A stretch of 64,000 nt of DNA from NCBI RefSeq assembly GCF_001485575.1, contig NZ_BCNB01000006.1, positions 1,116,001 to 1,180,000 of the forward strand, read 5' to 3'. Shown here piece after piece: positions 25,406 through 57,910 of the stretch; the first letter of the stretch is position 1, and every line of letters starts with the position of its first letter. This stretch comes from Haloarcula sp. CBA1127 (GTDB lineage Archaea > Halobacteriota > Halobacteria > Halobacteriales > Haloarculaceae). The translations under genes and the position numbers were made by a program. A model generated the notes under the pieces. The model worked only from the letters and a program-made list of their open reading frames with translations. It was not told where the DNA came from and searched no databases.

Positions 25406-25665
25406 ATGTATTCACCACGGGCGTTGCGTGGTTCAAGTCGCGCGCGGCGCGACTCACATCCCGACCTGCACACGCAGGTGCCCGCTGGTGCCCGTCGTCC
25501 AGCGAGTTACCACGGAATTTGCCGTTCGGACTCTTAAACGGTTCGGACCAGACTTGTGGATGCGACCCGGTCACGAAGACCCAGTGATCGCTGAAACCGT
25601 CAGATATCTGTATTTTAGCAACACAAACCGTTAACTTGCTCGCGGCCAGAGAGTCACGTATTACC

Positions 25666-34821: not shown

Positions 34822-34906
34822 ACCGGCACGTGGGTCGGCGCGTCCTTAGCCGTTCGGTTGCCAGGAACAGTTGTGTCCGCCTGTGATTTTGAGTGTGTGT
34901 TGTCTA

Positions 34907-35235
34907 ACAGCCAGAAAGCCCCCGATACGCTCCGGTCCCGCGGCTTGCTGTGCTCCTCAGTCGTTTCACTCCTTCCGGTGCTTGTGTCGCCGGGGTTCCC
35001 GGAGCGTGGGTGGTCGGATTTGCCGACCACCGCATAACGTGGCGGCTTCGCCGCCACGCTGTTGGTCCCTTTCAGTCCCACCCATAGTGGATTGTCCAAC
35101 CGGCTACAGGAGGGACTGAAAGGGGCGACTGCCTGAACGACGGCGGACGACGAAAGCACTGCACGAGCGACCATCGGGAGCGAGGAAGCGCGCAGCGAAT
35201 CCCCCGAGTTCAGGCAGTCGGGGCTTTCTGGCTGT
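34907..35235. repeat. Palindromic structured element, copy A
   Basis: A 329-base non-coding element bounded by a perfect 16-base inverted repeat (ACAGCCAGAAAGCCCC at 34907-34922 and its complement at 35220-35235). Inside are four further stems: 35009-35017/35023-35031 (9 pairs), 35038-35045/35051-35058 (8 pairs), CCCTTTCAGTCCC at 35067-35079 with 35112-35124 (13 pairs, 32-base loop containing TTGTCCAACCGGCT) and GACTGCCTGAAC at 35127-35138 with 35208-35219 (12 pairs). A related copy lies at 57675-57825. No protein frame is convincing. It looks like a non-autonomous mobile element or a multi-branched RNA. Confidence 0.7.
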
Positions 35236-35271
35236 CAAAACACCCTTCCCATCTTAGTTCTATCCAGTATC

Positions 35272-57674: not shown

Positions 57675-57825
57675 GCCCCTTTCAGTCCCGCCCAGTATTT
57701 CTTGTCCAACCGGCTGTGGGTGGACTGAAAGGGGCCGAGCGGAGGACGAGTCTGGCGACAGTAGCACCGCAGCGAAGCGAGGAGCGCACGGAATCAGACG
57801 AGTCGTCCGCGAGGGGGCTTTCTGG
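57675..57825. repeat. Palindromic structured element, copy B (shorter)
   Basis: Related to the element at 34907-35235. It shares CCCTTTCAGTCCC, the loop sequence TTGTCCAACCGGCT, GGACTGAAAGGGGC, an AGCGAGGAGCGC-type interior and GGGGGCTTTCTGG at the right end. The first stem is 14 pairs (57675-57688/57722-57735). The second (57739-57754/57795-57810) pairs at 13 of 16 positions with a sequence unlike that of copy A. The left part with the terminal repeat and two small hairpins of copy A is absent. Confidence 0.65.
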
Positions 57826-57910
57826 TTCTCTGAACCAATTTCGACCACACTACCTCTCTCAATCGTTACTAGCCCGCAATTCATATCGCATCGCGTCACG
57901 AAGCCCGGGT

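Follow-up and report, generated by a model that had tools for sequence, protein, structure and literature searches.

A haloarchaeal repeat that is probably a non-autonomous IS6-type element with a conserved, strand-specific fold, most likely a structured RNA

REPIN/BIME, ERIC, BOX and Correia sequences are structured intergenic repeats of bacteria. For the IS6 family, a review mentions MITEs of 227 and 336 bp (PMC7986276), and PATEs, which have IS605-type relatives, are defined by the absence of terminal repeats and target duplications (PMC3119063). We analysed a window of 64,000 nucleotides from Haloarcula sp. CBA1127 (the whole stretch of DNA under study), in which the original prediction had described a structured element in two copies, copy A (34907-35235) and copy B (57675-57825). 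Both copies are real, but the element is far more numerous, with 17 units found in the Haloarcula sp. CBA1127 genome by a covariance model (R1) built from 52 units. We propose, with a probability of about 0.68, that the element is a non-autonomous IS6-type MITE enclosing a conserved folded unit that is specific to one strand and most likely a structured RNA.

When the genome was searched with copy A and the other copies were aligned, the repeated unit proved to be shorter than copy A, a rod-shaped hairpin of ~120 nt. It reads GGG-N-GGGACTGAAAGGGGC, a variable stem of 13 bp, a semi-conserved inner hairpin, GGGGCTTTC and a genus-specific tail; when folded, it comprises an outer 5-bp helix (GAAAG/CTTTC), a GGG/GGG internal loop, the 13-bp helix P2 and then P3 and P4, which are separated by conserved purine-rich internal loops. 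Most units carry GGGNGGG upstream, and some, copy B among them, GGGNGG. The features of the two copies in the window are as follows.

34907..34922, plus strand: left inner-terminal inverted repeat of copy A, ACAGCCAGAAAGCCCC (exact pattern match)
34906..35034, minus strand: left unit of copy A (model match, R1 69.3 bits, E 2.4e-13)
35009..35060, approximate limits, no strand: double-hairpin insertion of ~52 nt in the 5' arm of the left-unit P2
35067..35124, no strand: central palindrome of the copy A dimer, CCCTTTCAGTCCCACCC...TTGTCCAA...GGGACTGAAAGGG, common to both units (both anchors exact)
35107..35236, plus strand: right unit of copy A (R1 103.6 bits, E 8.5e-21)
35220..35235, plus strand: right inner-terminal inverted repeat of copy A, GGGGCTTTCTGGCTGT, pairing with the left repeat
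57675..57715, plus strand: left half of the central palindrome in copy B, the left unit being gone
57716..57830, plus strand: single unit of copy B, with a P2 sequence unlike that of copy A (R1 76.2 bits, E 7.7e-15)

The ends of copy A are exact reverse complements (16/16), and the copy folds at -186.4 kcal/mol (z = -10.7 vs shuffled sequence), in agreement with the perfect 16-base terminal inverted repeat and four hairpins first described for it. Copy A consists of two inverted units arranged head-to-head around a common palindromic centre (TTGnnCAA). Its right unit is made up of GGGACTGAAAGGGGC, a 12/12 stem (GACTGCCTGAAC/GTTCAGGCAGTC), conserved inner loops and the terminal repeat, and the 5' anchor of its left unit, GGACTGAAAGGGA, is the complement of 35066-35078, further right and past the insertion. 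Copy B retains CCCCTTTCAGTCC, the TTGTCCAACCGGCT loop and GGGGCTTTCTGG, as had been reported, and its second stem, which contains a tandem G-A mismatch, is indeed wholly different in sequence from that of copy A. At the site orthologous to copy A the dimer is inverted, without the ~52-nt insertion in G023 (L265) and with it in G015 (L266). Many units (window 35009-35060 as well as L033, L050, L160 and L266) contain double-hairpin insertions of ~50-60 nt and varied sequence, placed within a P2 arm or an inner loop; these look like a further, smaller element that parasitises this one.

The pattern GGACTGAAAGGGG-N(70-100)-GGGGCTTTC matches at least 120 stretches among the genome contigs, every record listed being haloarchaeal, and it matched 29 of 41 genomes in a search of relatives, where the reversed control pattern matched 0. 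Further copies in related genomes, which the original prediction had named as a check, were abundant, with R1 matching 203 of 242 Halobacteria genomes and 64 of 74 genera. When R1 was applied to the phylum, 37/37 positive genomes belonged to the window's order, with none outside it among the phylum genomes sampled. Four deeply scanned genomes contain at least 93-133 units each, scoring having been limited to 150 candidates per genome. The pattern had no match in IMG/VR and copy A had none in phage records, so these records give no sign of a viral origin. No Rfam match at gathering score was found at the window copies, weak matches at chance level occurred in 10 loci, and neither Rfam nor ARAGORN named anything at the positions of copies A and B; the sole Rfam match in the window is a eL15-Euryarchaeota ribosomal protein leader (RF03144) at 25425-25478 on the minus strand. 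Literature searches and the databases searched yielded no description of the folded core, and the only papers found with the end or core sequences were unrelated.

No overlap with a predicted gene was observed for 127 of 153 scored units, and the units show no bias in orientation towards the genes beside them, which makes a cis-regulatory role linked to the adjacent gene unlikely. The proximity of both window copies to cupin genes, remarked upon in the original prediction, is chance, since other copies lie close to genes that we take, by sequence recognition, to be rpl40e, trm1, purM and cbiF/cbiG, as well as other genes.

The folded core is conserved by compensatory change. Across 183 units, P2 maintains 13 bp with at least 90% standard pairs at each position while its sequence is almost free, all four Watson-Crick types occurring at most positions, and it is frequently followed by tandem G-A/A-G. 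RNAalifold predicts 31 pairs, of which 22 show compensatory changes on both sides, and the covariation score of 0.477 exceeds the background expected by chance (0.144 shuffled, at most 0.09 slid); for 131 model-aligned units it is 0.515 vs 0.125 shuffled, in an alignment fitted to the structure. As the search pattern had fixed anchors, the outer helix GAAAG/CTTTC was invariant by construction in the first search set, which is no test of this helix. In a looser search, 4/4 deviating units carry GGAAG/CTTCC at this position and another genus has CAAAG/CTTTG, which establishes the outer helix as real. The GGG/GGG loop between the outer helix and P2 stays constant while the outer helix varies, and is nearly invariant overall. 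Together with the tandem G-A and an A-A, it belongs to a set of non-canonical positions conserved across genera. A kink-turn reading of the tandem G-A was rejected because the bulge is on the wrong side and has one nucleotide.

Variants of the interior were also observed. Within the same outer frame, L066, L118, L134, L137, L150 and the plasmids of the source genome have an inner hairpin of a second type (GGTCG..CTSAGCGACCCCTAT...ATATGTCGCTSAGCGACC). Hairpin-deleted remnants (GGGACTGAAAGGGGCC-GGGGGCTTTC or shorter) were found in L052, L062, L105, L123, L152, L160 and L330 and would fit a deletion between the GGGGC direct repeats on either side of the hairpin. The search for a gene-carrying version returned two long spacings between P2 arms.

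Analysis of the mismatches in P2 provided further information on the selected molecule. Under a strand-symmetric filter, G·T occurs 66 times and A·C 8 times (49 vs 7 in clustered arms, p = 7e-9), an excess that identifies one strand as the selected one. Taken with the covariation, this agrees with the earlier proposal that a folded single strand is under selection, and with the suggestion of an undescribed RNA family, for which no Rfam family match was obtained. Mismatches that DNA, unlike RNA, tolerates relatively well are less biased (G·G vs C·C 13:5; G·A vs C·T 12:8), as RNA would predict, and the pattern as a whole leans towards RNA over single-stranded DNA on small to modest counts. The same data bear on a fold without function, in which template switching within the hairpin keeps the arms of an ordinary decaying MITE complementary. 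The repeated deletion of hairpins between short GGGGC direct repeats marks the region as slippage-active and would suit such a process, which is, however, strand-blind and at odds with the 66:8 bias, with non-canonical positions that persist across genera and with invariant loops between covarying helices; we consider it improbable.

To define the ends of the element we relied on near-identical copies in G258, where they are of the GGTA(C/G)TGTTCAGATAAG type; such ends of ~17 bp are present in G258, G261 and G262. Of 219 units, 24 have terminal repeats on both sides, compared with none of 506 random places; L126, L152, L297 and L299 are flanked by perfect 8-bp duplications of the target. The length between the ends is 202-377 bp (single unit ~211-219, dimer ~320-377), with no transposase gene. 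In G262 (L316) the same ends bound an intact insertion sequence of ~700 bp with the target duplication CTAGTACC, whose transposase matches NF033587 transpos_IS6 (E 7.5e-56) and PF13610 (1.8e-8), and G258 contains a decayed IS6 transposase element with the same ends (L315). The element has thus moved by IS6-type transposition in some genomes, the link being observed in a few genomes only. At L051 and L152, where the terminal repeats are far apart, nothing but ordinary host genes was found in between.

Between close relatives in the window's genus, an orthologous site may be empty, occupied or rearranged, and at the sites of copies A and B the element is missing or rearranged in relatives. With the terminal repeats and duplications, this presence and absence bears out the predicted non-autonomous mobile element. 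Empty sites, which the original prediction had named as support for mobility, do exist, but their boundaries are not base-precise, the alignments being too diverged for exact excision boundaries. Beyond the 16-bp repeat, copies A and B show no more than a degenerate sequence resembling GTGTTGTCTAACAG, and no target duplication is visible in the window's genus, these copies included; that an IS6 enzyme moved them is accordingly something we infer from their relatives. The original prediction had offered mobilisation by an IS200/IS605-type enzyme as one of two possibilities. The hairpins close to the ends and the wealth of such elements in haloarchaea (PMC3119063) would suit a PATE-like element that a Y1 transposase mobilises in single-stranded DNA form, or an omega RNA associated with TnpB, but intact copies end in terminal inverted repeats, are flanked by 8-bp target duplications and share their ends with an element that has an IS6 transposase, which makes this origin very improbable.

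Many copies carry an extra upstream module consisting of GCGAGGGA, a variable stem and GAGGCTGGGGAGG. The stems of these modules differ in sequence and are complementary, as read by eye (the automatic RNAalifold alignment was poor). One such long form in the source genome sits between what are presumably cbiF and cbiG, named by sequence recognition, and lies on the opposite strand from the operon. Furthermore, a variant of the unit is found at one conserved place in several Haloarcula plasmids, beside a structured intergenic module.

L283, 1343-1630: long form in Haloarcula-group genomes, with similar flanks in L067, L116 and L182
L335, 2234-2334 (pNB101): the structured intergenic module in a small plasmid
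L336, 917-1034 (pHLAJ5II): the structured intergenic module in a small plasmid
L337, 4001-4378 (pNG500): the structured intergenic module beside the plasmid variant, as in large Haloarcula plasmids

In G062, tandem repeats of ~58 bp lie downstream of long copies (L342 441-700, L338, L341 and L345); each holds the 3' end of the unit (GCGGCTGGGGCTTTGG) and a TATA-like TTTATAAG, and they look like core-deleted tandem copies. Of the long copies inspected, roughly half have a TATA-like TTTATAA upstream (G062 only), and no evident promoter was seen in the single-unit copies inspected, which together with the random orientation is a poor fit with a cis-acting RNA role.

The plasmid variant lies near an OB-fold (SOSS-B-like) gene and, in pNG500, also near a type IV secretion gene. 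The adjoining module occurs in two small plasmids, one of which encodes a rolling-circle Rep, and is on the Rep-sense strand of pNB101; it may be a single-strand origin. Another intergenic stretch (CGTGATCGAAGTCCGGCAG...CCTACCCTTCTG) is likewise common to both small plasmids. The recurrence of the module on plasmids keeps a role as single-stranded DNA as the main rival, whereby the selected fold would be, for example, a start site for the complementary strand (sso) or a single-stranded DNA promoter that was plasmid-borne and later spread on IS6 ends. The plasmid setting, the random orientation to genes and the lack of a visible promoter in single units all speak for such a role. It is nevertheless unlikely, given that the mismatch bias is strong for G·T and weak for G·G and G·A, as for RNA, and that the rolling-circle plasmids hold the adjoining module and not the unit.

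For the MITE with a structured RNA interior, the following mechanism can be envisaged. An IS6-family transposase would act in trans on the ~17-bp ends, resulting in insertion with an 8-bp target duplication. The element occurs as a single unit, as two units head-to-head around the palindromic centre as in copy A, or as a unit with the upstream structured module. Transcripts across the unit would fold into the rod, whose G-tracts and purine loops would be recognised, probably by a host RNA-binding protein, and this recognition would keep the transcript stable or insulated, so that the insertion can be tolerated; in the head-to-head dimer, one unit would be correctly oriented under either direction of transcription. 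We advance this functional part, from recognition to the orientation-proof dimer, tentatively.

A further reading concerns the G-tracts. Spinach-type RNA aptamers adopt a duplex-quadruplex-duplex fold, and the unit is predicted to have a similar arrangement, with its G-tracts between two coaxial helices, which is an analogy only. Speculatively, the GGG/GGG loop and the upstream GGGNGGG might complete G-quartets, helped by the molar potassium inside the cells. It is doubtful that the element represents a new class of mobile archaeal non-coding RNA with a duplex-quadruplex-duplex fold, spread by IS6 in tens to more than 100 copies per genome, with long forms containing a second, G-flanked module with a variable stem. 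Should the G-tract core be a quadruplex, the molar potassium of haloarchaea would offer a natural setting in which to study such folds.

The unit occurs in most sampled Halobacteria, with at least 100 copies in some genomes, and has no Rfam entry or description that we found. It joins two subjects that are usually separate, MITEs and structured RNAs, and its near-free 13-bp stem with invariant flanks lends itself to a ready test of selection on RNA, on single-stranded DNA or on neither. Like the bacterial REPIN/BIME, ERIC, BOX and Correia repeats, it is built of hairpin units, often in inverted pairs, is intergenic and trans-mobilised and reaches high copy number; unlike in these, the stem is almost free with compensatory change and conservation falls on the inner loops and the flanking single strands, and the bacterial repeats involve another enzyme family and another domain of life. 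With the PATEs of Haloquadratum and Natronomonas it shares a non-coding, haloarchaeal and palindromic nature, many copies and repeat-mediated core deletions (PMC3119063). PATE membership finds no support, since PATEs by definition have no terminal repeats or duplications (PMC3119063), and intact copies here have terminal inverted repeats, 8-bp target duplications and IS6 ends. The IS6-family MITEs, compared by their description, have the same IS6-type ends, 8-bp target duplication and lack of an open reading frame, and no described internal RNA-like fold or covariation (PMC7986276). As their lengths of 227 and 336 bp (PMC7986276) are close to those of the single unit (211-219 bp) and the dimer (321-377 bp), the vehicle is probably of a kind already known.
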